A stretch of 64,000 nucleotides of DNA from Rhizoclosmatium globosum. Lineage: Eukaryota > Chytridiomycota > Chytridiomycetes > Chytridiales > Chytriomycetaceae. How positions within the stretch are numbered: position 1 is the stretch's first letter; each line of letters starts with the position of its first letter. The stretch spans positions 186,001 through 250,000 of the forward strand of contig MCGO01000061.1 of assembly GCA_002104985.1 (NCBI GenBank), given 5' to 3'. Of the stretch, positions 4,495-23,500 are shown in pieces. A program made the position numbers and the translations under genes. A model generated the notes under the pieces. The model had not been told where the DNA came from. It searched no databases and was given only the letters and a program-made list of their open reading frames with translations.

Positions 4495-6596
4495 ACCGAA
4501 ATTAAAACGAATGATCCATTCCTGTACAGTGCTGGACAGTCTTTGAAAGTATTTAGGGTGGCATTTGCAGAGTGGTGGAAAGGTTAAGTCTGGCTCGTCA
4601 CAAACGCTAATAAAGAAGAACAACCTAAAGATATTGTCGGTGATTCTGAGGGGTACATCATAACTGTGTTTTGAAACACGAGGAAAATCTAGGTTTCGTT
4701 ACAGCGTTTTCAGTGGAACATTAACCTCTCGATGAGAATAAGAAATATAAAACCTTTCTAAAAATATATCTTTATATGTGAGAAGAAAGAAAGGATTTTG
4801 ATTTACTCCTAATCTGTGCTCCACTTGTTCAGCTGCAGGCATCATTGTTAGAAAATTAAGAATTCAGATATTGTCTCACCACATCATCAACAGATAGCGC
4901 AAGTGAAGGTTGCAGAAGACTAAGTGGATCCGTTAGTTCCTTCGCCAAAAGCTCTGCTTCCCACACATTGCTGAATTCGTTGATTCGCAACGTCAGTTCA
5001 GATACATCCGATCGCATCTAACCTGTGCATCGGCTGAAAATCGCTATAGTATGAATAAGAAATCATTACATCTGAAACCCGTCATCAATTTAGAGGACTC
5101 CCGTGGAAAATAGTGCAGCCGCCAGTTAGGAAAATCTTGAGTCCATTATAGATTGATTCTCAGGTATTGGAAAAGTTTGAAACTGCGGAGGAAAGACATA
5201 TTTGGGGATGGCATTGGTATGTTACTTCCATTACTGATTTCTTTTGAATTTGATACAAGGATCTTGTTTCAGTGTTGTTTCTCACATAACTACTGAAAAT
5301 CTAAGGGGTTACTTCTCAATACTTCCAGTATTACCAACCCCTGAAAGAAGTTCGTCCGCGTGCGAAGTGAAAATTCGTCTAAAAAGTGATGCGAAAAACT
5401 CTAATTTGGCGGAACGGAAAGAAGCTTTGGGCTGCTGCATCATATATAGCTGTCACTTCTCCAGCCCATTCAGTTGCTTACTTTTCAATTGTTTTTGGAA
5501 TTTATTTCAATTCTTTCTTTCAGGGTTTGTTCAAGTTGAGTCTACAAGCCACGAGGAAAGGAACCCCTCAGATTCCAGGTTGTTATGATGGACCGCCCAA
5601 AAAACAAAACTCCCTGTATCAAAACCAAAAGGAATCAAGTTGATCGAAACCTAGGCAGCAATGGGATAGATACGCTAAGTTTGGAGGGAGTGACATATTT
5701 GGTCATATTTCAACGACCAGAACCGCAAACTTATCACTCATTTTGAACAACAGTTCTTTCAAGTAAAAGTCCGAATTCTAAGCTATTAACCGTGATACTA
5801 AAAGGGATTTAATCGGAAGTCTAATCTACATTCTCTCACTTCCATAACTACGTGTGAATGGATGATGAACTATGTGCACTTGCTGAGTTACCAACCAACC
5901 ACAACTCACCCCGAAACTTGGTCAAGTTTTCAAGCTGATGGATATAATAATTATGGACTTATCGTTTGTGCATTTAAGGGACAGTCTTGTGGTTGCAGCG
6001 CTGTTTGGCATTGGATTTTGTGATGAGCCTGGGAATAATTTCAAGTTGGAGCACTGTACTTGTACTAGCCTAAATATATTCTTGAGACTGTCCGGTGCTG
6101 TACAGGATTCATGCCTCACCAACTTGAAGACTTGGTTAACGATATCAACCAGTTCGAGAAGAAACGGGGCTACGTGATAAATTTTAAGGTGAAGACGAGG
6201 AGTTTTGGTTGGCTCAGCCGCCGTTGGTGATTGGTATGCACAGATTAGTAAGTTTATCTTTAGACAACTTCTTCAACTAAGCATTTTGCAGGAGGCAGCT
6301 GAAGAGTATCATTGAGCAAACACTGCCTCTTCAGATTCCCCGCATTTGTAATTTTTTGAATTGTTTTAATGAAGCTTTAAATCCCATAGAATGTTCGGTT
6401 GGATCAGAACGCGAAGATACTGCAAGGCAGCGAGATTAAAATAAAGAACTGCAGTGCAGGCTATAAGATAAAGAAGATATGTTGGAGGTTTATTTTTAAG
6501 TACGATGTATTCAACCATTCCCTGCTTCAAGCAGCTATGTTTTAGTACAAGATCATCCGTGTTTATTTTATCAACGAATAACACAAAGTAAACTTA
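4495..6596. other. Intergenic stretch without a supported gene
   Basis: About 2.1 kb between the 3' ends of two convergent genes. Open frames here are short (longest about 114 codons, at 5244-5588), lack recognisable motifs and cannot be linked by convincing introns. It is AT-rich with scattered stops. I see no RNA gene, repeat or conserved element. Confidence 0.55.
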
Positions 6597-8059
6597 TTAA
6601 GCAATAATCTCATCAACCATAAAGATACCCTCCTTCTCCAAAGCCTCCAGGATAGGGTTGTTGATTTCCGCATCCATAGGCGCAATAACACCACGTCTCT
6701 TCAAAACACCATCCAAAATGAGTTGAGTAGCAATACCACATGGAACACCGACAGTAGTAGCCATAGCCGAGTCTCCGTTGGGGACACCGAACCAAAGTCC
6801 AGTTGAAGTCCGAATCTCCTTCTTTCCGTTAGGGTACTCCACCCCGAATCTGTGCTGCAGCATGACCATGTCACGTTCACCTGGTGCGTACATCATCTTG
6901 TCTTCAAGGGTAGCACAGAGAGTGTCGAGCATAGTTCCACGAAGGTGCACGTTGGTTTCAGAGAACATTCCGAGCCACTTCATACCAAAGATGATACGTT
7001 CACCGTCATCACCAGAAAGGTTTGCAGTCTTTCTGACAGCAGCTTCGAGGGCGTCGACAGAGGTGAAGTTGACACCGACGGCCTGGGAGAGGAGGGCGCG
7101 CCATTGGATAGGGGCGGCAGTTGAAGCCAAGTGAGGGACTTCCTTGTCGTCCAAGAATCCAAGCTTCACGAGAGCGTTAATGAATTTAGGGAAACCGGCG
7201 TATCGGAGGGTTCCACGGATGACAGTCTTGGCTTCTGGGATGTGGTAGCGCTCGTTGTAAGGGGTAGAGTCACGGTTAGGGTATCCCTCGAAGGCAAAGG
7301 CTGGGTAGATTGGAATTGGTTTGGCGCTGTTCATGAGTTCTGGGCCTGGAATGTCGAGGATCTTTCCGTCCTGGACACACTTGGCGTTGTTTCTGAGGGC
7401 AAGGAGGACACCGCGAGACGACCAGGAGAACTTGTAACCAAGAGGGTTGTTTGAGCACTCTGGGGCAGGAAGACCGCCACAGTAGGAGGTGAAAGAGGTG
7501 ATCTTTCCGCCGAGTGCGTGGACTTCGTCGATTGTCTTGATTGCGTACAAGTGGTCGATTCCAGGATCCACACCAATCTCGTTCATGACAGTAATGCCAG
7601 CGTCCTTTGCGGCCTGGTCGTACTCCATCATTGCGGGCGAGATGTACGAGGTGGTCACGACGTGCTTTCGGTGCTTGACGGCCGCTTTGATGACACGCGC
7701 GTGGTGCGTGTATGGAATCAAACTTGGGTTGGATGGAGGGTGGTTGGTTGGTTGGTTGGTTGATGGTACGCTGCAGTTAAGCTCACCTAATGACAACATC
7801 GTGTTTCGCAACGGCAGCTTCGAGGGCGGCATCATCGTTGACATCAAGGGCAATTGCTGATGCGTTTGGGCGGCCGGCAATCAGGTTGGTGACATTGGCG
7901 ACTCGACGGGCAGCTGATTTACCACAGAGATAAGAGAAGATAAGAACAGGAACACTCAAGGGCCTTACCAACTGTGATCTTGTTCTCAGGACGCTTAAGA
8001 AGGTAGCTGAGACACGGGTCGGCAACAAAGCCTGAACCAAGAAGGAGAATTGAGGGCAT
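6597..8059 (-). CDS. LYS9: Saccharopine dehydrogenase (L-glutamate-forming), lysine biosynthesis
   Basis: Reduces the imine formed from alpha-aminoadipate semialdehyde and glutamate to saccharopine, the penultimate step of the fungal alpha-aminoadipate lysine pathway. Exons on the minus strand: 8059-7969, 7913-7787 and 7722-6597, giving 447 residues (yeast Lys9 is about 446). The start is an ATG followed at once by the Rossmann dinucleotide motif GSGFVADPC. ALDVNDDAAL and SYISPAMMEYDQAAKDAGI follow, then GVDPGIDHLYAIKTIDE and SFTSYCGGLPAPE, hallmarks of the C-terminal saccharopine dehydrogenase domain. Introns are 55 and 64 nt; the second contains a run of TTGG tetranucleotide repeats near 7738-7764 but still splices in frame. 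The gene is convergent with the Tsc13 gene and shares its strand with the CoA-synthesis gene downstream in coordinates. It looks intact. Confidence 0.95.
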
Positions 8060-8522
8060 TGGTTGGTGGTGGTGGTTGTTTGAGATGCTTTTCGAAAACG
8101 AGTGGCAAATGCAAACATCACTTCCGGTTGTTCCTTCCGAATCTCCACTTGCCACCTTGAAAGTCATTGTCCAACTATTCAGCCTTTGTTCCTGAAGCTC
8201 TTTCTTTGCTGAAGCCTGAGAAACATCGAGCGAAATGGCACAACACATTATACACCCTTGTGTTAGCAACTCAAGAAACGCTTTCATTTATTCGTTCAAA
8301 ATATACACAATTTCAAGCGAATCACTCCTCAATCAAACCAGCACGAACCTTCCAAGCCGGAATAACAACGACCAACACCGCCGAACTATACACATAATCA
8401 ACGGACGCCTCATTCCCATAATACGCATACTCATGCTGATTGATATTCTTTGCCTTTTAATAATTTAAACATTCTCTTGCAATGCTGCCATACTGAGATT
8501 GCTGAGATTTATTCAACTCGAT

Positions 8523-9596
8523 TCATTTTGGAGTCTTCTCAGCTTGTTCACTCAGATACCGCCTCAGAAAAGATGAACTAATCTTGTCTGCAAAGTTTTC
8601 TGAATCCTTTCCTTCCAACTCAGGATTCGCGACAACTCCAATCAGATAGATGTCTAGTTCACATAGCCCATTCTCCTTCCGAAGCTTATTGACTGCCAAA
8701 CAGCCTTGCTCAGTTTCGCCACTAGCAACAATAACTTGCATATCAGGTTCGTTTCGCGTTGGTCCAAAGTCATCAAGAATTCCTTCAATACGATATTGGA
8801 GGTTCGGCTTCAGGGATAAGGAACGAAATTAGTGTCTGAAACAAAGTCGAATATCACGCCCGATCCCATTCTCGCAACTCCAGGACCAGATGGGTTGGCA
8901 AATATCCCTCCTTCCTCAAAGTAAGTCCGCAATAACACCCACCTTGAAAAGCCTCAAAAACTCTTCTACCGCTTTAATACGAGCATCCAAGGACTCCATA
9001 AATTCATGATTTGCTTTCTTTAGTAGCCGTTGAGGGGTATTGGCAAAGTCTACATACATCAATAGGACGAATCAATACTTCACAACCAACCAACTATTTT
9101 ACGCACCATAAACTCCACAAATCAGTTTCTCTTCCGCAAGAAGCGCAGCCATAGACAACAGAATCAAATGACCTTGATGCAAATGATCAAACGTCCCACC
9201 AAGCACAACCGTCTTTGGATCCACCACATTCGTAACAGGAACATACTTGAACGCATGTGATGCTTCAAAGCGAGGCGTCGAAGGCAATGCCACTTTGACG
9301 TACTTCAAATGCCTCAATTCTAACGGTGCTTCGTCGTCCTCGCCAGTCACGCAATCAGCGCCTTCGACCGCACGCGAAACATCGCTGACTCCGCTGACTA
9401 AGACGCGCACGTGGCGGAGTGGATCGCTGATGACATAAGCGGCGGTGTAGATTGATGAAAGCATCGCGTGCATTGAGTCAAGCCCGGGTTGCTGTGGGAT
9501 AACAATCGTTACTTTGCTGACTGAAGCGTCTTGGATGCAGTGGCGAACGAGGGCTGGTGGGTTGGTGCATGAGGGGGTGACCACAATGACGTGCAT
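8523..9596 (-). CDS. CAB4: Phosphopantetheine adenylyltransferase (eukaryotic PPAT, Cab4 type)
   Basis: Transfers AMP from ATP to 4'-phosphopantetheine, the fourth step of CoA synthesis. Exons: 9596-9107, 9049-8943 and 8807-8523, giving 293 residues, close to fungal Cab4. About 130 N-terminal residues precede the nucleotidyltransferase core. The core has the GGTFDHLHQGH motif (the HxGH-like ATP site) and then a DDFGPTRNEPDMQVIVASGET block that matches the family's second motif. The downstream intron is 135 nt, long for this region. Its acceptor was chosen because the exon then aligns without gaps to the family (FLRLFK followed by PNLQYRIEG); an earlier acceptor would put a stop in frame. It lacks the dephospho-CoA kinase domain found in animal CoA synthase, as expected in fungi. 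Intact. Confidence 0.9.
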
Positions 9597-10461
9597 TCTT
9601 CAGAGACTTATTTCTCTACAAACACAATAAAAGGCTCACTTTCCATGCCGGTCCAAGTCCAACTTGAATAAATACAAAAAGAGCGGCGAGAAGGGGTCAT
9701 ACGCCGCGATTCCGTCGTTTCAACCTTTCAATTATGATAATTAACGGATTTTTTGAGCAGAGAGTGCAGAGAAAGAGTGTTAAGTCAGGGTTGGTGAGTT
9801 CGAGTTGGACTTGCAGTTATGAATACCGACTGTCGAATACATACACAACAAATAGTTGATATTCTTTCACGCAGTTTAATTGATTTTATTACGAAATTTG
9901 GTTTGCGGGGTTTCTTATCTTAAATTGTTGGTCGCATTCAGAACACGAAACTCACAACTTCCTGTTGTCGGAATGACGGCAGAAACAAAGTATGCCAATC
10001 AATTCTAATAAACTAAATCCTTTTTATTTTTAAATCAGTCATGTTGTAACGGTGGATTGAGGTGTAATGTGATATTGTCACTGATTCCGATCAAAACTCG
10101 CAAATCATTCGTCTTATACATTTATATTACTTTATCAATCATCTCTAATGCGTTAAAATGCTTGGTTGAATGGTAGATTGATTCCTTCCCCGACCTGTTT
10201 ATCACTTTGGCTCTTGGTTGTCTCCTACAGAAAAGGCAACATAAAATCGCCGCTATAATTGCTACAAGCTTCAGATTCGGCGTAATCGTTCATATAGTAC
10301 GATTATATAACTGGGGAAATCGAGGAGATCTGTGCTGCAGTGGAAAGGCGGTGGTGGTAAGTTTTGGTGGGGTTTGATTCTGATTGGCTCCTTTGGAATT
10401 GAAAGAATCTGATTGGCTCCTTTGAGATGAGCAGTGAGCCCAATAAAACGATATTCCATGT
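9597..10461. other. Intergenic stretch, nothing recognised
   Basis: AT-rich sequence upstream of the CAB4 start and downstream of the decayed F-box 3' end. No open frame of useful length, repeat or structured RNA is evident. It should hold the CAB4 promoter, but no specific site can be pinned down. Confidence 0.5.
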
Positions 10462-10928
10462 TTATTTGTTTTGATGTTGCCAAACATAACAAAAAATCTT
10501 GCCATATACAGCGAAACCAGCATACTTCAGCCATTGATAAATGAACCCTGCCTCGTTCATCATTCGATTCTGTTCCTGGATCGATAATGTCGGAGAAGGA
10601 AATGAGAGCCTCACTTTCCCGATACTCGTATGTGGTAAAATCCGAACCATATCCAAAAGGATTTCTCGATTATGATAGACCAATGAGAGTTCCTTGACGT
10701 GTTTTGCGACAGCAAGAACGGAGGAAACACTAAGAGTCGCTTTGACATTTCCCACATATTCCAATTTTAGACAGTGGAGCCGAGGACATGAGGACAACAG
10801 AGGGAGAATAATACTATCACCCAAGCAAGTGATTTCCGATGGATTCAAGGCTTCCAACGCCAATCGCACTTGGTCAATCTCATCAACTTTCGTGTTCTTT
10901 CGTATAGGCCCAAGGTGAATCCCTACTA
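10462..10928 (-). pseudogene. 3' half of an F-box-like gene cut by the transposon
   Basis: The minus-strand frame from about 10928 to 10462 encodes the C-terminal half of the local F-box-like family. It runs from VVGIHLGPIRKN through QVRLALEALNP and an LRR-like tail ending AGFAVYGKIFCYVWQHQNK. It aligns with the second half of the intact paralogues at 17017-17910 and 40989-41924 (their [10 protein letters not shown] and ISQAIVDCNP). It has no start of its own. Its missing N-terminal half lies at 16047-16490, beyond a 5.1-kb transposon. When the transposon and one TA copy are discounted the two halves meet in frame. The gene is therefore interrupted and presumably inactive, although each half is still open, which suggests a fairly recent insertion. 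Confidence 0.85.
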
Positions 10929-10940
10929 CATCAGGAAACT
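10929..10940 (+). repeat. Left terminal inverted repeat of the transposon
   Basis: CATCAGGAAACT, the exact reverse complement of the right terminus, preceded by TA at 10927-10928. Beyond 12 bp the two ends diverge, apart from shared AT-rich subterminal words. Confidence 0.85.
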
Positions 10941-11342
10941 GCAGATATGCCTAAATATTAATAAAAATGTATGGAAATGTATTCTTATGGAGCTTATGTA
11001 AAACATGCGACCCCCCCCCTGATTTCAATACCTGCCAAATTTGACATACGCGTTCTAATGCGTGACAAATGTTGCAAATGCATGAGCAAGGCATTACTAA
11101 TAGATTAGTGACAATACAAAGAAGGCCTTAGAATAAGAAGAATGAGTGGGGCATAACACTTATAAGAAATACATTTCCAATGTATTTGCAATGCATTCAG
11201 TATTCCAGCCCAACATAAGTCTCTATTTCTAATCTGCTTGAATATCTTACAATATGCACATAATGTGGGATAATAATGTTTATTTTTGGCTTGCATTTTG
11301 AGCCAGAAAGGATATGAAACGAAAGGATATAACAACAATGCA

Positions 11343-12985
11343 CTAGAACTTGAACTTTTTCACAGTGTTTGTGCTCTTGTTGAAACGACGACGTAAGACA
11401 GAGTAGAAACCACTGCATCCAGCTCTTACACGAGATTGTAAGTCGAAATCATGGACTCCGTCGGCATCGATACCTTTGTATGCGTTCAATAGCTGTTGGT
11501 AACAAGCAAACGATGCTGTGTGGTCGGTGAAAGCCAATGTAGTCTGGTCGACTCTTTCAAGTTGGTGGTGAACCTGGGCATGTCATTAATATTTATATAA
11601 TCAGAAGGAGAGTTGTTACCAAACTGACAAGAACTGCAAACGGATGGATTGACTTGTTCTCGAAAAACTCCTCAATTGTCAAACAGCGCTTGAATGACGC
11701 CAAATTGATAGCAGTTTCGCAGGCATTCAGGAAATGTGGATTCTGGTACTGTTGGCACATGGTTACTCCATCTTCTTCATTGGTTGTAGTTAGATGAAGA
11801 AATCTACAGAGAGATTAATGTCTTGTTTGGAATGAATCATGACTCACTGAAGCTCATCCAGTAATTCCGCAGCTTTGGGTTTGTTCCGAGCTCCAGTTTT
11901 GAGGCCTAAATCGTAAGGATCGGTTGCAAGCCACATCTTGTTGAAATCGCAGAAGAATGTACTTCTATACGTTTGGATTTTGTATTTATACTGTGGAAAC
12001 TGTTAGATTACGTATCTGGGATTAGAACAACGACTTACATCTTCATACATCTGAGTTGGGTCAGACGAGAGTAACGGCTCAACCTTGAATCCACAAGCAC
12101 GACTGAGAAGCAAATAAATCCGACTGCGTACTGCTTTATCTGGCTCTCCAGTGAATGAGTCAACAAAAAGGCGGTGTTTGATACAATCCTTGACACATAG
12201 AGACAGGAAGGTTGCGTATTGCCTGTTGATGACTAGAGTTAGAGTTGTGATCTGATCAATAAAGAGATACGTACTTCTTGGACAGTCCAGCTTCGTAGAA
12301 GAGATCACCCGCAATGAGTTCGTTCGGGGTTTCATTTGAATCGGGATCGGCATTGTTCCATCGCCTGGCACCAAGGCTTGCGCGACTCGCATCAGTCGCT
12401 GGGTTCTCGCCTTCTTCTGGAATTGTTTCGTTTGGACCATTGCGTCTGGAGCGTGGAGGCGTCACGTCTTCGCGGCGGGTTTCTTCGTCTTCGGTGTTGT
12501 TGTCCTCGCTGCCTTGGTTGCCCTCGTCACCCTCGTCGATTTCGTTGCCCTCGTCGTCGTCCTCCACGTTGTTGTCATCGTCGTTGTTGTTGTCGTCGTC
12601 GTCGTCGTCGTCGTCGTCTTCGTCCTCGTCCTCGTTGTCATCCGCTTTGTTGGTGGTCTTGACGTGTCTTCCATTTCTAATGAAGTTAAAAAACGAAGAA
12701 GAAGAGAGAACACCACTCACTTGTTCGATAAACGTTTTGCCTTCGCGATCAAGGCCTTTACGTTCGAGTTCCTTTTGATTTAAACGTAAGATTTGAAAGT
12801 TGAAATAAAGAGCCTTACAAAGATCCTGTTGAGGCAGCAAGTCTCTTGGTGTTCCGGCTCTTCTTCCCCTTGCGTATTTTCGAAAGACTAGAATCGAAAG
12901 TAGACGCATTGTTCTTCGGATGCGTTCGACGTTTGGCTGTTTGCTTTTGTTTCCGAGTGACGCCTTTGTCTTGCGATTGCGCCAT
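11343..12985 (-). CDS. Acidic, DUF6532-like protein encoded by the transposon
   Basis: A multi-exon minus-strand gene in the element. It starts at an ATG (12983-12985) with a Lys/Arg-rich head (MAQSQDKGVTRKQKQTAKRR). Two short introns follow, then a long Asp/Glu/Asn-rich tract encoded by a GTC-rich trinucleotide run (about 12540-12640). The C-terminal 250-300 residues are globular, with segments such as AVRSRIYLLLSRACGF, NPHFLNACETAINLASF and TASFACYQQLLNAYKGI, ending at 11343. The order of these segments (a helix after a short loop, then F-x-HP-like, then a Y-x3-Y/LL helix) resembles the fungal DUF6532 family, which I recall mostly from basidiomycetes; this match is tentative. The basic head and acidic stretch suggest a nuclear protein that binds DNA or chromatin. 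Its ATG is only 40 bp from the transposase ATG on the other strand. No clear frameshift was found, but exon joins in the middle were not all proven. Confidence 0.55.
12540..12640. repeat. Trinucleotide (GTC/GTT) low-complexity tract
   Basis: Dense GTC, GTT and CTC triplets that read as poly-Asp/Asn/Glu on the minus strand within the transposon-encoded acidic protein. The longest pure run is about nine GTC units near 12595-12616. Prone to length change. Confidence 0.8.
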
Positions 12986-13025
12986 TGTTTTCGTTTTGCA
13001 AACAAAAATTGAACAACTAAGTTGA

Positions 13026-15764
13026 ATGACTTTCCGTTGCAGGTTTAACTGCAAAGTCTTCAAATCAAAAGACAATCTTGGAAGACATATGCGATTATGT
13101 CATCCTGAATACTTGTCGATGAGCCATGGCCCAGCATTGTTCTCCGACCCTTCCGAATCAGACCAAAGCGCAACTGAGGAAACATAGGTCTACCACTTAA
13201 TGATGTCTATTACGATGAAGATAAAAGTCTTGTCAAGCAAATAACCGATACATTTCGTCCTCACGATATTGATTTAATTGTGCATTGTGTTGTTGAAAAT
13301 CCAATGGGGCAGACCGCTATCACCCGCAAAATTAAATTTGACAATCCGCGGTGGACACCTGAATGTCGAACAGCCTTTAAGACTGGGAAAGGGCTTTTGG
13401 AAGCCATTGATAAATTTGCTGGCTTGAGTGTTGTATGTAGTGCAAGTTTTTAAGGTTCAGTACTTCTGACATTCCTTTAGGATTACGAGTGTCTTGATGT
13501 ACCAATCGAACTTATTCTCTCTAATATGCCTGAAAGATATGAGGAAAAAGCAAGAGCTCATTGGGAAAATGATCCCGTTTCAGTCCATGTACGCCCACTA
13601 GACAAAGTAATCGAATGCATGCTCAGTGATTCGACTCTAAAAGACGTATTCAAATATTGTTATATGCAGCAGCTTGATGCCATTGGAAACCGTATTTATG
13701 ATGAAGCGTATTCAAGTGATTACTGCAAGACTCTTCAGGAAAAGATTCCTAATGGGGGGACACCACTTCTGCTAAAGTTTGGATCTGATGCTGCCCTTGC
13801 GACTAAAATTGGAAAGCAAACGTTTCATCCCATGATAATGACCTTTGGGAATATTGACAAACGTTGGCGTAATAAGCTCTCAAACCAAGCAAGTGTTATG
13901 GTGGCGTATCTCCCAGTGTTATCAAACCAAACTACTGGTGAACGTGAATCTCAATTCCTCACAGCATATAAACGTGCAGTTCATCATGCAACCTTGGCTA
14001 TTATTCTGTCTTGCATTGAGGATTGGGTTACACATGGAGTTGATTTGATAAGCCCAGATGGAAGAATGCGCTGCTACTATCCATGTTTATTCAATTATGA
14101 TGGCGACTATCCAGAGTTAACCTTGACTGCCACTGTTAGCCCTGGATGTCTTGCTGCCCCAATGCCTTGCTGTTTTGTGAAGCAGTGCGAACTCAGCAAC
14201 TGCGGGCGTAGTTGTCAGTCGTTTGTTCGAAAGAAGACTGAGTCTTTGGAACAAAATTTCAAATTTGCTATGCGCGGGAAATCATACACAATTCAACGGG
14301 CTCGTTTTGCAGCAAAAGGGCAGGTTCCATTTGTCAAAAATGCTTTCTACAAACTGCACATGGCATCTGAGCGATTCTGCATTCATTCCGCTGTTACTGC
14401 TGATCCGATGCATTCAATTTTTATTGGAGTCTTTGGTTATCACCTCTGGAAACTTGTGAAATCTGCCATCACTGAGAAGTTTGGTGATAAAGGCCTTCAG
14501 AAAATGGATCTTAGAATTTCAAAAATCCCTCCTTACCCTGGATTCAGCCGATTTCAGAAGGGAGCTTCGTCTCTAAGCAAGCTTACAAAGAAAGACTATG
14601 CAAGCATTATGATTTACCTTCTGCCATGTGTCTACGATTTGGTTTCAGTTGAAGTAATTGAATGCCTTGAAGCTCTTTTTGATATCACGATGATGGTTTC
14701 GGCAAAGAGCCATACCGATTCATCCTTAGCTATTTTGACTGCAAGACTTCAAGACTTTTCAGACTTAGTTCAAGTATTTGACACAGACAAGAAGTCTATG
14801 AACTTTCCCAAAATGCACATTTTGGCTTCATTTCCAGAAGCAATTAGAAGGTTCGGCGCCACTGACTCGTATGGAACAGAATTTTGGAGTCAACACAAAG
14901 AACAAACGTGGTCGCTGCTTATGCTGACACCAATAGGAAGGAATCAGAAAAGCAAATGATTCAGAACGGCACTCGAAAGGATAAGGTCAACAGAATGAGA
15001 AATCTGATGCTGAGACACAAGGGATTGACTTCTGGAGAAGCCAAAATGTTTACCTGGAGTGAATCTGCTGACCCGCACTTCAGTTTGGTAGCAAGAAAAC
15101 GACTCTTCTCCTTTCGTGAGTTTGAAGCTTCAGACAAAGTTTATCATGGCCTCAGCCATAAAGTTGGAAAGTATGGAATCAAAATTCATCTGTTTGTCAA
15201 GGTAAGCACAGTGTTAAAAAACCAAAGCTTATCTTTTAAATCTAGGAGCATACTTTATTTCGCTCCGCCAAAATTGTCAATTTTGACAAGAACAGCAGTC
15301 AGCATGTTGAGTTTCTTCGAATTGGCAACAAGGGATTGCCAGACTTTTGTGTCTACACGTTGAATAAGCTAAAGCCTCCTGTCATGGAGTCTGGCCTGGG
15401 TGGAAGTCAGTTCCTTGTTGGAAGAGCAAAACACTTCATGGCTGTTAAACATCAAGATAGCAATAATATATCACATTTTGTGGTATTGCAACGTTACCAG
15501 GCCCTACCGCAACACCAACAAAACAAGAGTGGCCTGTTCATTCTTGAGCCTGCCCATGTTGGAGACAAGAATTCGATTGTTGTGGCTCCTCTCAATTCAA
15601 TCAAAGGAAGAGCTCACATTATTCCTTATTTTCAGGATGGACAAAACGGAAAGTCTGGAAAGGTTTATTTGAATACGTATGCAGAACGTAACCTTTGGTC
15701 TATCATCCGCAAGAGTTACAATTTTTCTGCTGGATCTGACACTGAATCAATTTTGTCTGACTGA
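13026..15764 (+). pseudogene. Plavaka-like transposase, apparently frameshifted
   Basis: The ATG at 13026 begins a C2H2-like finger (CRFNC then NLGRHMRLCH), as common at the N terminus of Plavaka transposases. The core runs 13187-13432, intron 13433-13480, then 13481 onward. It includes FHPMIMTFGNIDKRWRNK, ASVMVAYLPV, CLFNYDGDYPELT and ADPMHSIFIGVFGYHLWK, matching the family pattern (nucleotide-like substrate list, GNI/LxxYLP and DYPE motifs). Two breaks are visible. The zinc-finger frame ends at TAG 13185-13187 while the core opens in another frame with a stop at 13175. Near 14882-14885, in a T4 run after SYGTEF, the frame must shift by one base to continue as TQRTNVVAAYADTNRKE. An intron at 15201-15245 leads to the C-terminal exon ending at 15764. 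The first break might hide an intron; the second is most simply a one-base deletion. The copy is probably non-autonomous now. Confidence 0.8.
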
Positions 15765-16034
15765 GCCTCTTGTGAAAGCTATAAAAGCTGCTTGTATCTG
15801 TCTTTTAAGAATGAATAAAAATACATAAGTTAGCTATTTATTATACACAATAATGTATGCATAATATGCCAAACAATTACTTTGAATGTCAAATCTATTA
15901 CGTTTCCATGTATGATCCATAATTTTGCATTTCATGCATTTGTAAGGCATTCTTAACATTTCAAATATGAAAAATTCCAAGAAATGTATTCGTAATGTTG
16001 CATATGCATCATCATGCTGCAAAATGTTGGGTTG

Positions 16035-16046
16035 AGTTTCCTGATG
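16035..16046 (-). repeat. Right terminal inverted repeat of the transposon
   Basis: AGTTTCCTGATG on the plus strand, the exact reverse complement of the left terminus, followed by TA at 16047-16048 and then F-box coding sequence. Confidence 0.85.
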
Positions 16047-16490
16047 TACGTTCTTGCCAGCACAAGAAACTCGTTTCGACCATTCACTTAACGCCAATGA
16101 TCCCAATGCACCAAACATCAAGCACACATTCCGAGAAGATACATCGCAAAACATCTGAATCTGATCAAGAGGAAAGTCTTCAGCAATCTCGAAACGTGTA
16201 ACACCGTTGAATCGTGATATCAGAGTCCCCAACGCTGCAATAGCTTTCTTGTGTTGTAGTAATATCGGTATAGTACGTTTGGAAAGCTTCATATCTGGCC
16301 AAGAGTACATGCCGCTGGTGCTGTTGAGAAGTTTCCCAGCTTTGACAATGATATCGACGTACTCAGTAAGTACTGGCATGACTCTACAGAAGCGAATCAT
16401 ATCATGAGTGGTAAGGTGCTTCAGGATCTCATCAAGCAATTCGACTGGAAGTGAGCAGATTGATGTCACAGTCATTTTAAGAACATTCAT
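16047..16490 (-). pseudogene. 5' half of the transposon-interrupted F-box-like gene
   Basis: The minus-strand frame from 16490 gives MNVLKMTVTSICSLPVEL, then an F-box-like helix set (LLDEILKHLTTHDMIRFCRV) and a middle region up to SEWSKRVSCAGKN, where the transposon begins. The true start may be the second Met (16475), which matches the paralogue starting MTCLSSLPTEILDEV. After the TA at 16047-16048 the frame continues into transposon sequence as non-homologous residues. The matching 3' half is at 10462-10928. F-box proteins recruit substrates to SCF ubiquitin ligases; this family is assigned from the LPxEILDE motif and an LRR-like remainder, not from a known orthologue. Confidence 0.85.
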
Positions 16491-16556
16491 AACAGAATCA
16501 GCAATCTGGTCAGCAATAGGATATTTGCCTCTTAGTCCTCATATTACTTTCTACTG

Positions 16557-16960
16557 TCATTTCTTGGCATTGCAACGAACCAAAGCCTCCAGCACTCTCA
16601 ATATCATTGACCTTTGCCCATTCGACCCTATATTTTCCGGAAGATATTCCTGAAGATCTCCATTCAAAGTGGAGATGGAAGGGGACGTCACTATTATTAG
16701 GAAGAGAGGGGGGTTTGGGTCAAAAGTGTCCACTGGTCCAAACATCACAATAATTTTCTTGGAAGTGACGTTGAAGAGGGAATTTATGGGAATATCGAAA
16801 CATGTAGTACCATTGAATCGAGATATCAGAGTCCCTAACGATCCCACGGCCGCACGATGTTGAACAATGACTGGTATAGATCGCATGTAAAGTGTCATGT
16901 TTGGCCAAACATGCACTGCTCGGCAAAAGCGAATTGTGTCATGTGCGAGCTCAACTAGAC
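16557..16960 (-). pseudogene. Decayed F-box-like copy with internal deletions
   Basis: On the minus strand, residues HDTIRFCRAV run straight into HVWPNMTLYMRSIPVIV. This skips the roughly 20-25 residues that follow the F-box in the intact copies. The stretch GSLGTLISRFNGTTCFDI is clearly homologous to the neighbour at 16047-16490 (ALGTLISRFNGVTRFEI). The homology then drifts, with a short LRVLEALVRC-like remnant before the stop at 16557. There is no proper start codon and most of the C-terminal LRR-like half is missing. It lies between the interrupted copy and the intact copy on the same strand, so the three look like old tandem duplicates. Confidence 0.8.
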
Positions 16961-17016
16961 GAAAGTCATTATATAAATGAAACTTTAAAGATATTTACTA
17001 GATATCGTTATCATTT

Positions 17017-17910
17017 TTACGTTTTGTACCAACATCCAGATTCAAAACGGATACTTTGGATACTTTGAGATTTCCGTGAAACAAATCCAACCTTCCTCAT
17101 TTTTCCATCCAGCTCAATCAGCTCATGATTGCTGACACTGTACAGGAACAGAATCTCTACTCTTTTAATAGCACTATTCGGCAACACTCGAATCAATTTC
17201 AAACAAGTATCTTGTTCAGGATATTTGAGGGTAATATCAGTAAGCATCTGCATTTGGAGCAACAAAGATTCAAAAGAAGCCAAGAGTCGAGATCCGTAAA
17301 GAAAAGACAGGCTGAGAGATTGTAATCGTGTGCATAAAGTTAGACTTGATATCAATTCATCTGCGAACCCAACATACTGTCGAGGATTCACATCAACAAT
17401 AATTTGACTGATTTTGTCCAAGTCGTGAGATGACTGAGTTTCGTTTGCATGCCCAACTGAAAGGCGTAATATCAACTTGCTGTGAATTTCCAACTGCTCC
17501 AACCAAACAGTCGCTGCTTCGTGGTGAGTTCTGTTGATGTGCAGCAAAACATTGTTGGATAACACTGAACAGATCACGCCAATATGGTCTGGAGTGACAT
17601 CCGAGTCGGACGTATTGATTACCAGTTCAGTTGCCCTTCCAAATCCCGCTACCACGGCCATAAGCCGCTGAAGAGCTGGAATGCGTGTGATAATCGATGG
17701 TACCATACTTGAAGTCATTATTGGATTCGGCCAGACTTGAAACAATGATGGAGCGTCATAAATGATCGATGCATAGGCATTCAGCCTCGGTACAGCTCGG
17801 CAGAACCTCATCATATCGCGAAGATACAGGAACTGTATAATCTCGTCCAAGATCTCTGGGGGAAGTAAGTCGAGCGGCGGAGCCTGCATTGGTTTGGTTG
17901 TTGTAAACAA
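17017..17910 (-). CDS. F-box-like/LRR protein, intact family member
   Basis: A single-exon gene of 297 residues. After a short N terminus comes an F-box-like motif ([20 protein letters not shown], then [13 protein letters not shown]). About 230 residues follow with leucine-rich periodicity ([42 protein letters not shown]), ending WYKT. The likely role is substrate choice for an SCF ubiquitin ligase, inferred from the family type only. Its start is 14 bp from the start of the divergent RidA gene, so both must share a very compact promoter, or an internal Met (17889) is used. The same family recurs at 10462-10928/16047-16490, 16557-16960, 40712-40812 and 40989-41924. Confidence 0.8.
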
Positions 17911-17924
17911 GAAATCAACCCGAA

Positions 17925-18613
17925 ATGTCCGAGCTTCCCAACGGAACCCCCTTCCTTCTCAAAGACCGCGCAGGAGGCCTTGCAAACTACCCACATGCCC
18001 GCAAGGCTGGTGGATTCATCTTTGTGTCTGGGATCAGCTCGAGACGGCCAGATAACACTTGGGAGGGAGTTGAGTGCCTGCGTCGTTCGTTGTCGGTGTC
18101 TCTCTAACATCTTATTTAAATGTGTTTCTAGGTTGAAGAGAATGCAGATGGGACTTGGACGCTGGATATTAAGGCTCAGACGAAGGCTGTCTTGCAAAAG
18201 TTCGTGTGCCAACCATTGCAGATGTTGCATGCATACTAACAATCAGTTAACATAGTATCAGCGTCATCCTTGCGGCTGCAGGCGCTTCGCTGGAGAACGT
18301 GATTGATCTGACTGTGTTTTTGGTTGATATGAAGGATTACAAGGAGATGAACGAGGTGTATAACACCTTCTTCCCAGTTCCAGAAAATGGTACGTTATGC
18401 ATTGCTAATATTGAGAGGCTGTGGAGGCAAGAGGCAGTGGAGGGAAACCAGGGAGAAGGAAACACAGAAGTGGTGGCGTCACCCGAAGATCTCCACCTAT
18501 TCATCTGTCTAACATATTCATTAGGACCATCACGTACAACTGTCGCAGTTAAGCAGCTCCCGAACCCACGCTTGTTGATTGAAATCAAATGCACTGCTGT
18601 TGCACCTCAATAA
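17925..18613 (+). CDS. RidA/YjgF family protein (2-aminomuconate deaminase-like)
   Basis: Exons 17925-18068, 18132-18199, 18256-18389 and 18525-18613 give 144 residues, the usual RidA size. RidA proteins hydrolyse reactive enamine/imine intermediates from PLP enzymes; some members are annotated as 2-aminomuconate deaminase in tryptophan/kynurenine breakdown. Visible family features are the [10 protein letters not shown] strand, the [20 protein letters not shown] helix with [20 protein letters not shown], and a C-terminal [20 protein letters not shown] block. The last block contains the Arg and Glu positions of the family active site. The third intron is 135 nt. The Trp-rich insert near [17 protein letters not shown] fits the 2-aminomuconate deaminase-like subgroup better than classic RidA; this finer call is tentative. 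Confidence 0.88.
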
Positions 18614-18700
18614 AGAGTTCGAAGTGACTGTCTTCAACAATCCTTCAATTCTACATGATATTATCATGACATGTTCTGCATTCATTATTATACAAAAAAG

Positions 18701-20500
18701 ATGCATTTAATTGGGGCATTGGCAGTGCTTGCCTGGTTGGCAGCCGCCTCACCCACCAGCCAATACTCCGAGCACCTCCAACTGACACAGCGCCCAAATG
18801 GCAAAGTCGGAGCGCACTTTTCGTTTTCGCAGGTTCTCGACGGGACAAAGTACCACGCGCTCGAGGCAATTGCGCACGAGTTTGGCGTGGCATCGCTCGA
18901 CTTGGCGTTTACTCAGGGCAAGGCCGGCGGATGCAAAGCACTCAACTTGGACGGAATTGAGTGTACTCCCGCGGGGCTGGTGCTGTGGGCCTGGCTGGAG
19001 TACGTGTGCTGCTACTTAAGTAGAGTATTGCTAACTAGTAAGGTTCCAGCAACGATCTCAGTCCGGCTCTCTCCTCGCAGAACTCTTCAGACTTTAGCTC
19101 GAGGTGGACAGGCTTAACGAATGCTCTCGCTGGAACCTTTTGTGCGTCAATCAACCAAATTGTACCAACAAAGGTCTCTGCAGAACCAAGGGAGTCTTTC
19201 AGAGTGGATGGCGTTGATCCTGGTAATATGATACGCTTACTTATGCCTGCTTCTGACCGGAAACTCAAATAGAGAAGCACTGGCTGAGATACGCTACTCT
19301 GCCTCGAGAAATCACCTGCACAGAGAACTTGACACCATGGGCGAAGCTTTTGCCATGTACCACTAAGGTACACTGCTTTTGAATCAGGGATGACACATCT
19401 AACTCTGTTCAGGCTGGTATCGCGTCTCTCTTCAATGGATATACTCTCTTTGATGCAGACTACCACTCTATGCGTGTACGCCTTCGTAAACAATGCAACT
19501 CTGCGTCATTAAAATGCGAAATCGAGTTGCACCAAGATTTAATAGTTATTTTGGATCCCGTCCGCAAGAATTATGACCGATCCATCAACTGGTCACTGAG
19601 ACTGTTGTTTGAACGCGAAATTACTGGACTGTGTCCTTTGGATGTGGATGGGTCTCAGGTGACTGTCACATTGCCGGGAGGCAAGAATGCAAATTGGTAT
19701 GGAGCTTCAGAACCAGTGAAGGATTCTACCGGAAACTTTGTATTCCCGCTCGAATTGGGTCCGTTTTTATTAATTTCATTATGCGGCTAACTTTGTTTTC
19801 AGGAAAGAGAGTTGACTTTGGTCTTACATACTATGACCAGGAGCCAGTTCGCGACAACATCTTTGTTCCTACGATTCAGTTACACCGCCACTTGACTGGA
19901 TATGGTCGTGAACGTGGGGGATTCAACCTGCGTTTGACAAACAACGACCCAACCACCCCTCAATCCGTCACTCTTCTCGAAGTTTTACCGTGGTATCTCC
20001 ACCTCTACTTGCACACTCTGCAAACAACCACAACTTCTGTGTCAGATAACAGTCGCATTCTCGCGACTCCAAACATCACGCAACGCTATCAACTCTCCAT
20101 CCCGCGTTCTCGTCCCTCAATTCTTGAGTTCTCATTAACTCTCCCACCTGCCTCAACAACAACCATCCACTATGAATTTGACCGTGCATTCATCAAATAC
20201 ACTGAACACCCACCCGATGCAAACAGAGGGTTTGATATTCCACCCTCCGTTCTCACTGTTCATGCGGAGAAGCCATACAGAATATTCAGTGAGATTCTGT
20301 TGATTGCTCTTCCAACACCTGATTTCTCGATGCCATACAACGTTATTACCATGACATGTACGATCGTAGCATTGTATTTCGGCACTGTGTTTAATTTAAT
20401 TGTGAAGCGGTTGGAGGGTTTGGAAAGGATTCCACCAAAGAAGGCTTGGTGGAAGTTTTGGATGAAGAAGGTTGATGAAGTCAAGGAAAAGACCTATTAG
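18701..20500 (+). CDS. GPI16: GPI transamidase subunit PIG-T / Gpi16
   Basis: A component of the ER complex that attaches GPI anchors to proteins. The ATG at 18701 starts a signal peptide ([18 protein letters not shown]). The luminal region has [52 protein letters not shown] and [11 protein letters not shown]; the C-terminal membrane helix ([20 protein letters not shown]) is followed by a Lys-rich cytosolic tail. Supported exons: 18701 to about 19000, about 19043-19222, 19273-19367, 19413-19758 and 19803-20500. The first junction is odd. Homology demands WAWLE followed by GSSNDLS, but no GT-AG pair between 19000 and 19043 gives that frame. Either a non-canonical or very short intron is used or a base is missing. 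The CxxNLTPWxKLLPC block contains the Cys that in PIG-T links to PIG-K. Otherwise complete. Confidence 0.88.
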
Positions 20501-20555
20501 ATGCTATTGCTGATTTATTAATGTTATAGATTCCAAGAATAATGAATAGGAAAAG

Positions 20556-23500
20556 ATGGGAGAAACTGTCGTTGTTCCGCTTCAGGAACTAGTCACATCG
20601 CTCTCCATCAATCCAAATGGCCACCACGTTGTTCTCGCAGCAAAACGTGGATTATTCCTCCTCGATTTAACGACGCCGTTCGCGCCTCCGATCGCATTCA
20701 AACACAATACCAAGTGGGAGGTGACAGATGTTATTTGGAACCCGCATCCGCAACACTCGTCCTGGATTGCCTCCACTGTAAGCTACTTATCAAATGCACT
20801 GTATTGGGTACTAACTCTGGCTGGCTGGTCGTAGAGCAACCAGAAAGTGCTGATTTGGAACGTGGATCCCACTGGCTCAATGTCCCTCTCAAACTCTCTC
20901 GCCTCCGCATCTTCAGCAGCAAATACTTCAGCCAGTGTCAGCAACGGCTCAACTCCAACGCCATCAACTCCTGCCGCCCATACCTCAAAGGCTTTCAGAG
21001 TAAGTCTCCCAACACCAAATCCAACTCAATCTTAACCCGTTTATTCCCTTATTAGACCTCAATCAATACCCCTGATGCATTCCGAACTGCATCAACCCGC
21101 GTAAACCCTCTCATAAACCCCTCCTCAATGCCCCAAAACCAAAATGTCGAAATCGTCCTCCACGTCCATAAACGCGCCGTCAGTGACTTCCACTGGTCTC
21201 CCTTCCGATCAGAAGTCATCGCTACATGCGGATACGACAATTTTGTACACGTATGGGACCTACGCACGCGCTCCGGATCCACATCATCAACAACCTCCGA
21301 CGACGGGAACCCACACAGCGAGACTGGAATTCCGGGGCGAAGTGGAATGGCTCTTGTTCTAAGCAAACCAGATGTATCGTTCTGTTCATGGACCTCAGGC
21401 GCAACAGCTGTGAAATGGAATCGCGTCTCGGAATATATGCTCGCTTCTTCACATGACACGGACCTGCGAGTCTGGGATACGCGATTCGGGTCGAAAGAAG
21501 TGTCGTTGATCACTGCTGCACACATGACAAAGATATACGGGATTGATTGGAGTCCGAGAAGTCCTGAGGAGATTATAACGTGTAGTCAGGATCAATGCGT
21601 GAAGTTGTGGAATATTCGGGAGACGAGGAAATGTGAAGGAACTATTATGACGAATAGTCCTGTTTGGAGGGCACGCTTCACGCCATTCGGGAATGGGATT
21701 GTTACTATGCCGTTGAGAAAGGAGAATGAGTTGACTATGTGGGGGCTTGGAGATAGCTTCGCGGGTGAGAATGTTGCAACGTTTACAGGTCATACGGATG
21801 TCGTTAAGGAGTTTGTGTGGAGAAATTGTGGAGGTACGCACTCGTTTTCCTGTTTGATAAATTCTGACTTGATTCGCCCAGACAATGAATACCAATTGGT
21901 GACTTGGTCGAAAGATCAAACTCTGCGTTTGTGGCCGATTGACAGAAAAATCCAGATTGTATGTATGGGTTGATATCCCGATCCGTTCATTAACACAAGC
22001 ACTACTGTAGGCCATCGGACACAAACCTCGTCGACTTTCTTCTCATACAACTCTCGCAGCTTTGTATGCGGCCTCTGGTGGAGATCCAAATGTAACTCCA
22101 ACACAACAAGCAATCCCAAATGCAGCTCAAAATTCGCCTGTCATTCATGCGTCACCAGCGCCCAATCGTCCGATTCAGTTCAATGACTTGGGACTTCCAC
22201 TTATTCAAGGATTAGAAGGTATTCCGGCAAAGAAACCAACTCAATCTATTGCTGCATCAGAAGATGATGGAGAACTTTCTGATAATGGGAGCTATGTTGG
22301 TAAGAGTGGAAATATGGCGCGACCAGGGAGCTTGAAAAGTGTGGGTAGTGCTCCCGGCGTTGGATTGTCGGAAATTGAAATGGAATTACTTCGCGTTGCC
22401 GCTGGTTTGAGAGAATGGGAGCCTGCCACAAAACAAAACTTGACAGTTGATAATGTGAGTAAATGTTGCTCAATATCAACAGTTTTCTCAACCAAAAATA
22501 GGTCGATACCGCAGCGAAAGTCATATCAATCACAATCCGACGACCAGTTTTCACGTCTGAACCAGTCCCAGTACACGTTAACATCCTCTTCCAAGATGAA
22601 ACTCCGCCGTCTCGGACACCATCGGTTGTCCTTACACCACAATCAAAACTCCAACAACACCCTCCACTCACACCATCCAGTAAAAAACTGACACTGTTTC
22701 CAACATTCGAAATTGTCCGTAGTGGTTTAATTCCCATGGCCCAGCGCCAAAACCTTGCGTCACGGCTCCAAACACTCACAATTTTTCTTGTTGCGAAACG
22801 AATTCCTACTTTTGAACCGTGTATGAGATTTCTAGCGTACGATGATCCTAATGCTGGAATCGATCCAGGCCAAGTTGGCTTTGTGGGAGGAGTTGATGGA
22901 TTGCTTTCCAATTCAGGATCTACGAATGTGGTTGTAGCTCCTGGAGGAAGTGGAAACAGTATACTGGGAAGAAATACGAGTTCTCTCTTTGGAGGAGGGG
23001 TAGGAAATTCCTTGGAAGAAGATGGATCAAGAGGCTCTCGAATCGGAGAGATGAAGAACTTGAGCCTTGGGGACGATGGAATTTCACCCCGTGGTTTACG
23101 GATTGTTGCTGGAGTCAGTCCGTTGGGGGCTGAGCGTTTACCAGCAACGGATGGTTTGAAAGTCGGATCCATGAATTCAAATGATATGCAAGATGCTGGA
23201 TTCTCAAGCGACGACAGTGATGAGCGGTTAGATGTTGGAGGTCGTGGAGGCTACAGACATTTAAAAGAACGACGATTGATGAAGGAATCTGGACCAACAT
23301 CAGGAAGCGGTGCAAACGTTCCTTTTCCACGATTATGCGGCGCTTCATTTTCCATGAGTGGTAAGTTCAATAATTGTGATGGCAGAAGCGTAATTCAGGG
23401 AAAATAGGACATCTCGTTTGTTTCTTTTCACCACTACCACATCCAACCAAAGTCAAATATGCAACGTATTCGCTATCAACGCGTCGTCAACAGCCCTTGT

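Follow-up and report, generated by a model that had tools for sequence, protein, structure and literature searches.

Plavaka DNA transposons have been moved to the EnSpm-like CMCT clade in a study that describes Plavaka families from Agaricomycotina and gives termini and duplications for its newly characterised families (Kojima 2025, PMC12730594). PlavakaA has TGT..ACA ends and a 2-bp target-site duplication; PlavakaB has CATCA..TGATG ends and a duplication of 2 or 3 bp (Kojima 2025, PMC12730594). Further afield, a Plavaka transposase has been reported in the protist Amoebidium (PMC11244446), and Plavaka elements of Rhizophagus irregularis, like the one described here from a fungus outside Dikarya, were annotated by domain profiles, with neither ends nor an empty site given in the accessible text of that paper (PMC11075540). 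No chytrid is named among the titles of the Plavaka papers listed in a literature search, and we do not claim chytrid Plavaka as unpublished.

We analysed a 64,000-nucleotide stretch of Rhizoclosmatium globosum DNA (C379:186001-250000, hereafter the window) from a 56.9-Mb assembly of 420 contigs, denoted by C and a number. We are highly confident that it contains a PlavakaB-like DNA transposon that interrupts a minus-strand F-box gene and is flanked by a 2-bp duplication, TA (Table 1); this is a well-founded and largely ordinary transposon insertion. The perfect 12-bp inverted ends and the flanking TA reported in a preliminary description of the locus are both present and together form a perfect 14-bp inverted pair, TACATCAGGAAACT (10927-10940) and AGTTTCCTGATGTA (16035-16048). 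Within the window the exact 12-mer CATCAGGAAACT occurs solely at the two element ends, the eight further matches carrying one or two mismatches. That description has held up as to the ends, the transposase, the F-box target and the junction; its views of the target rule and of the rarity of such data have not. It was silent on the broken transposase gene of the window copy and on a second gene, both treated below.

Table 1. Features of the window by position, and target-site duplications by contig.
Feature	Position	Strand	Basis
PlavakaB-like DNA transposon, 5118 bp	10929..16046	+	inverted ends, four more both-end places, C131 empty site
Target-site duplication, left TA	10927..10928	.	single TA at C131 empty site
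Target-site duplication, right TA	16047..16048	.	sequence; C131 single TA
Left 12-bp terminal inverted repeat CATCAGGAAACT	10929..10940	+	sequence
Right 12-bp terminal inverted repeat	16035..16046	-	sequence
Interrupted F-box gene, 5' part with F-box	16049..16535	-	PF00646; C131 homologue uninterrupted
Interrupted F-box gene, 3' part	10465..10926	-	joined 318-codon frame
Transposase exon 1, C2H2-like finger (C-X3-C ... H-X4-H)	13026..13187	+	copy alignment, C417 model; in-frame stop closes it here
Transposase exon 2	13188..13432	+	homology to C417 model
Transposase exon 3, PF18759 Plavaka domain	13481..15201	+	open frame, profile match
Transposase exon 4, C-terminal 172 codons	15246..15764	+	C417 model
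Second gene, predicted 453-aa protein	11343..12985	-	spliced model; same model open in C417
Second-gene exons	12985-12819, 12771-12721, 12676-12275, 12222-12039, 11990-11848, 11803-11620, 11573-11343	-	predicted
TA duplication	C379/C368, C157, C380		
AA duplication	C417		
GT duplication	C366		
AT duplication	C171, C97, C105		
CT duplication	C94		
TT duplication	C113		

The interrupted gene was identified by the F-box profile PF00646 (E 2.8e-4, 21.1 bits against a cut-off of 20.5), in agreement with the target named earlier. When its flanks are joined with one TA, the minus strand is open over 318 codons from stop to stop and reads CAGKN-VVGIHLG across the junction. An uninterrupted homologue on C131 aligns over the whole junction and has a single TA exactly at the predicted point: the left flank (to window 10926) corresponds to C131:17718-18212 at 90% identity, the right flank (from 16049) to C131:18215-18753 at 91%, and the two bases between them are TA. 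There is no alignment break at this place, and the joined window version and C131 both read CAGKNVVGIHLG. The empty homologous site shows exactly the junction that had been predicted. The C131 frame is open over 354 codons from stop to stop, compared with 318 in the joined window version.

A second empty site was found for the copy on C366, whose 1000-bp left flank matches C74 at 96%; the alignment of both flanks together to C74 spans 3007 columns at 96.5% identity and contains one GT only. For the C417 copy neither flank yielded an empty site, the left flank being a repeat and C390 matching the right flank only, and none was found for C157 from the one flank searched.

Over window positions 5000-22000 the related contigs are C368 (at least 99% identical from about 6.4 kb onwards) and C131 (90-95% for the most part); at 5000-6170 both are just 85-88% identical, which gives a patchy picture of haplotypes or duplications. 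A dispersed repeat (9633-10425) lying immediately downstream of the F-box gene recurs at about 96-97% on C99, C231, C409 and C224 and more weakly elsewhere. Upstream of the gene, a stretch of about 95 bp (16619-16713), possibly a small non-autonomous element, recurs at 90-95% on 10 other contigs.

Copies were sought by a whole-element DNA search of the genome followed by inspection of ends. Besides the window, four more places (C368, C157, C417 and C366) have both ends with the same termini, giving five both-end places. C368 is 99.87% identical to the window over 9.5 kb, and the only differences between the two element copies are two single-base gaps; since its flanks are the same as those of C379, it represents the same insertion event. 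The copies on C157, C417 and C366 lie in unrelated flanks and are separate insertions. Divergence between copies is 0.49-1.25%, and 0 for C379 versus C368 with gaps left out. With its copies separated by only about 1%, the family is a candidate for recent activity.

The C157 copy carries a nested 5.5-kb insert (C157:102831-108375, loci L012 and L013), which lies within the second gene and has about 6 bp of element sequence at either side; by eye, its frames may resemble a DDE integrase. Partial copies of the element were found on C1, C418, C273, C301, C364 and C212. Right-end relics at C418:32576, C273:25544, C301:174679 and C364:470 (90-96% identity) all have an identical 25-bp outer flank, suggesting that one old fragment probably spread inside a larger repeat.

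Target-site duplications were evaluated in three related families with similar ends, which together provide 11 distinguishable insertions; C379 and C368 were counted once and one-ended partial copies were left out. The two related families with definable ends comprise C380, C21 and C171, and C94, C97, C105 and C113, respectively. A 2-bp duplication is seen at 10 of the 11 insertions and a 3-bp match at none. The single miss is C21, where one end is flanked by CG and the other by TG. The left end of C171 lies within a CAT repeat, where two tested placements give AT and a third, further out, would give AA and a miss; with C171 counted as a miss, the chance probability of at least 9 duplications out of 11 is 9e-10 at the base composition of the window. 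The targets lean to A/T, and TA is not required.

A TA-specific element, ESTA- or PHISTA-like and always targeting TA, would agree with the duplications at the window insertion, C157 and C380, and TA-duplicating fungal ESTA and PHISTA elements have been described (Kojima 2025, PMC12730594). We nevertheless regard this reading as highly improbable: AA (C417) and GT (C366) flank copies that belong to this family and have identical ends, the GT case being backed by its single-GT empty site, and the related families carry CT, AT and TT. A TA-only target is therefore rejected, and with it the earlier expectation that other copies would be flanked by TA.

The window and C368 alone could, with their long near-identical match, be one duplicated segment. 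Yet it is next to impossible that the inverted ends are a chance pair or a segmental-duplication part and that something else split the F-box gene, given that the same ends recur in unrelated flanks at C157, C417 and C366 and that C131 is uninterrupted. A less extreme but still unlikely alternative concerns C131 itself, which could be the product of precise excision or gene conversion and not an ancestral empty site. Empty sites by themselves give no direction, and C379, C368 and C131 are patchily related. However, cut-and-paste excision usually leaves footprints, whereas C131 has a clean single TA, and its flanks are diverged, mostly at 90-95%, as for a separate lineage.

The Plavaka assignment of the transposase, made in the preliminary description, is borne out by profile PF18759, which matches the window exon at 13481-14956 with an E-value of 2.5e-39 (135.8 bits, cut-off 26.3) and the spliced C417 transposase with 1.4e-40 (140 bits). 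All 14 genomic matches to this profile exceed the curated Pfam cut-off. The C417 model has four exons and 938 residues, with a finger-like C-X3-C followed by H-X4-H at the N-terminus, where the zf-C2H2_4 profile matches weakly (E 0.52, below its cut-off). This transposase is 99% identical to a protein of Rhizoclosmatium sp. JEL0117 and 50-53% identical, over at least half of the searched part, to five proteins of Obelidium mucronatum; a comparable N-terminal finger stretch is present in three of these five (P0003, P0004 and P0005), the other two records beginning further in. A sequence comparison of the transposase alignment with solved structures gave no match at E-values up to 1, and the AlphaFold model of the transposase exon (mean pLDDT 49.5) was too poor to test for an RNase-H-like DDE fold.

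The window and C368 copies are without about 220 bp compared with C417 and C366, nearly all of it around the first intron of the transposase, resulting in an in-frame stop after the finger exon. The long transposase exon is open over 492 codons in the window copy, against 627 in four further copies of this family, C368 included. Because of this lack and the early closing of the long exon, the window copy is probably not autonomous and would likely depend on transposase from another copy in order to move; more open copies than that of the window exist in the genome.

The termini CATCA..TGATG are exact at all five both-end places of the window's family; in the two sister families the right end is CATCA, and the left end is CATCT or, in C171, a CAT-repeat variant. 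The ends and the 2-bp duplication are those of PlavakaB, whose families were reconstructed from Agaricomycotina (PMC12730594), whereas the element described here is from a chytrid. The earlier view that termini, duplication and target from a single locus are rarely available for this group is not supported, PlavakaB having already been defined by these very ends, though from Agaricomycotina (PMC12730594). PlavakaA shares the 2-bp duplication and a Plavaka transposase with our element but differs in its ends, TGT..ACA (PMC12730594), and the fungal EnSpm families described have CAC..GTG ends and 3-bp duplications, as opposed to CATCA and 2 bp here (PMC12730594). More broadly, the CA..TG ends of EnSpm/CACTA elements (CMC group) are found in the window's family as well. 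Kinship with KDZ was considered and rejected, since Zisupton makes 8-bp duplications (PMC12730594) and the present element 2-bp ones.

Two motifs given for the CMCT clade, C(2)C and H(3-4)H (PMC12730594), are not seen in their literal form in the window's family. Searched as written, they are absent from all five proteins compared (the spliced C417 transposase, P0002, P0003, P0004 and P0006), each of which has C-X3-C instead. The place where we presume the H pair should lie, by comparison with basidiomycete sequences, reads HILAS, HSLSC or HTLSC in the transposase alignment; the second D (GDYPE) and the E (GTE) are likewise our putative assignments of catalytic residues. No C-X2-C is found in the C94 and C171 exons, and the C380 exon has one between the putative catalytic residues, at a different place, which spoils a clean contrast. 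Since the two motifs were not found as written, we classify the element as PlavakaB-like, a variant and not a strict PlavakaB member. Three distant Plavaka exons (C405, C335 and C404; loci L048-L050), which end before the last E, all have C-X2-C and perhaps belong to another Plavaka lineage.

A TET/JBP dioxygenase, the trait of TET+ Plavaka elements, was not detected, neither of the two gene products matching Tet_JBP. Elsewhere in the genome there are six TET/JBP-like matches to PF12851 (C301:150553, C101:69261, C110:28361, C334:415134, C1:221290 and C17:92922), three of them over the cut-off. None shares a contig with a PF18759 match; C301 and C1 carry element relics, about 23 kb and about 800 kb away, respectively. 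Counts of 8-mers near the ends barely leave the range of shuffled sequence, and we do not claim subterminal repeats.

The second gene lies on the opposite strand and is open in the window copy. It has seven predicted exons and six introns, all GT-AG and 44-52 nt long, and its product has a basic N-terminus and an acidic D/E/N-rich middle. Its start codon (12985) and that of the transposase (13026) have 40 bp between them, as they do in C417. Searching the genome with the C-terminal 263 residues yielded 31 matches on 13 contigs, 12 of which have a Plavaka transposase or its remnant in divergent orientation on the opposite strand; at the remaining locus, on C212, a 3.2-kb stretch gave no transposase match. 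Conversely, the second gene accompanies 11 of the 14 Plavaka matches in the genome, and none was found at the distant C405, C335 and C404 exons among the matches to that query. The divergent pair is conserved between families: the C380 protein, rebuilt from DNA, is 32.9% identical to the window protein over 255 aligned residues, and four of four introns are at the same columns and in the same phase, which strongly supports a gene common to both. The C379 and C417 versions are separated by 8 synonymous and 8 nonsynonymous differences across 453 codons, numbers too small for a judgement on selection. No such gene is mentioned for PlavakaB in the accessible text of Kojima 2025 (PMC12730594).

Beyond a Rhizoclosmatium hyalinum protein, to which the C-terminal part is 99% identical, no relatives of the second protein outside these elements were detected in sequence and two-row alignment searches, which need shared exact words and limit length, so that distant relatives may be missed. 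No family in the Pfam scan reaches its cut-off, and the predicted structure (mean pLDDT 37.8) is too poor for fold comparison. A DUF6532 identity, suggested by the gene layout, was rejected as there is no Pfam match; the PF20149 profile matched neither the genome nor the controls, and its silence hence shows little. DUF6532 and Plavaka domains are listed together in Ganoderma (PMC8955403), which is not evidence for the second gene here.

Judging by its sequence, the element would move by cut-and-paste through the predicted DDE transposase, whose cuts in the target would be staggered by 2 nt and which would recognise the ends, perhaps through the N-terminal C2H2-like finger. EnSpm/CACTA elements often have a second DNA-binding protein, and by analogy with TnpA of CACTA elements the opposite-strand protein may assist transposition as an accessory factor. 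A bolder proposal, which we put forward tentatively and regard as possible but doubtful, is that these elements form a chytrid-own two-gene Plavaka lineage with gene starts 40 bp apart, in which two proteins jointly bind the CATCA ends: a finger transposase whose metal site is rewired (C-X3-C, H-x3-S/C), and an obligate partner unique to the lineage. If this were true, the partner protein would represent a novel type of accessory factor for transposition.

A type of element known by its ends from Agaricomycotina since 2025 (PMC12730594) is now extended to a chytrid. The empty sites fix the ends and the duplication length without guesswork, and TA, although present at the window copy, proves not to be the rule. 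These Plavaka elements are, in addition, given a conserved second gene, a testable candidate for a role in transposition.
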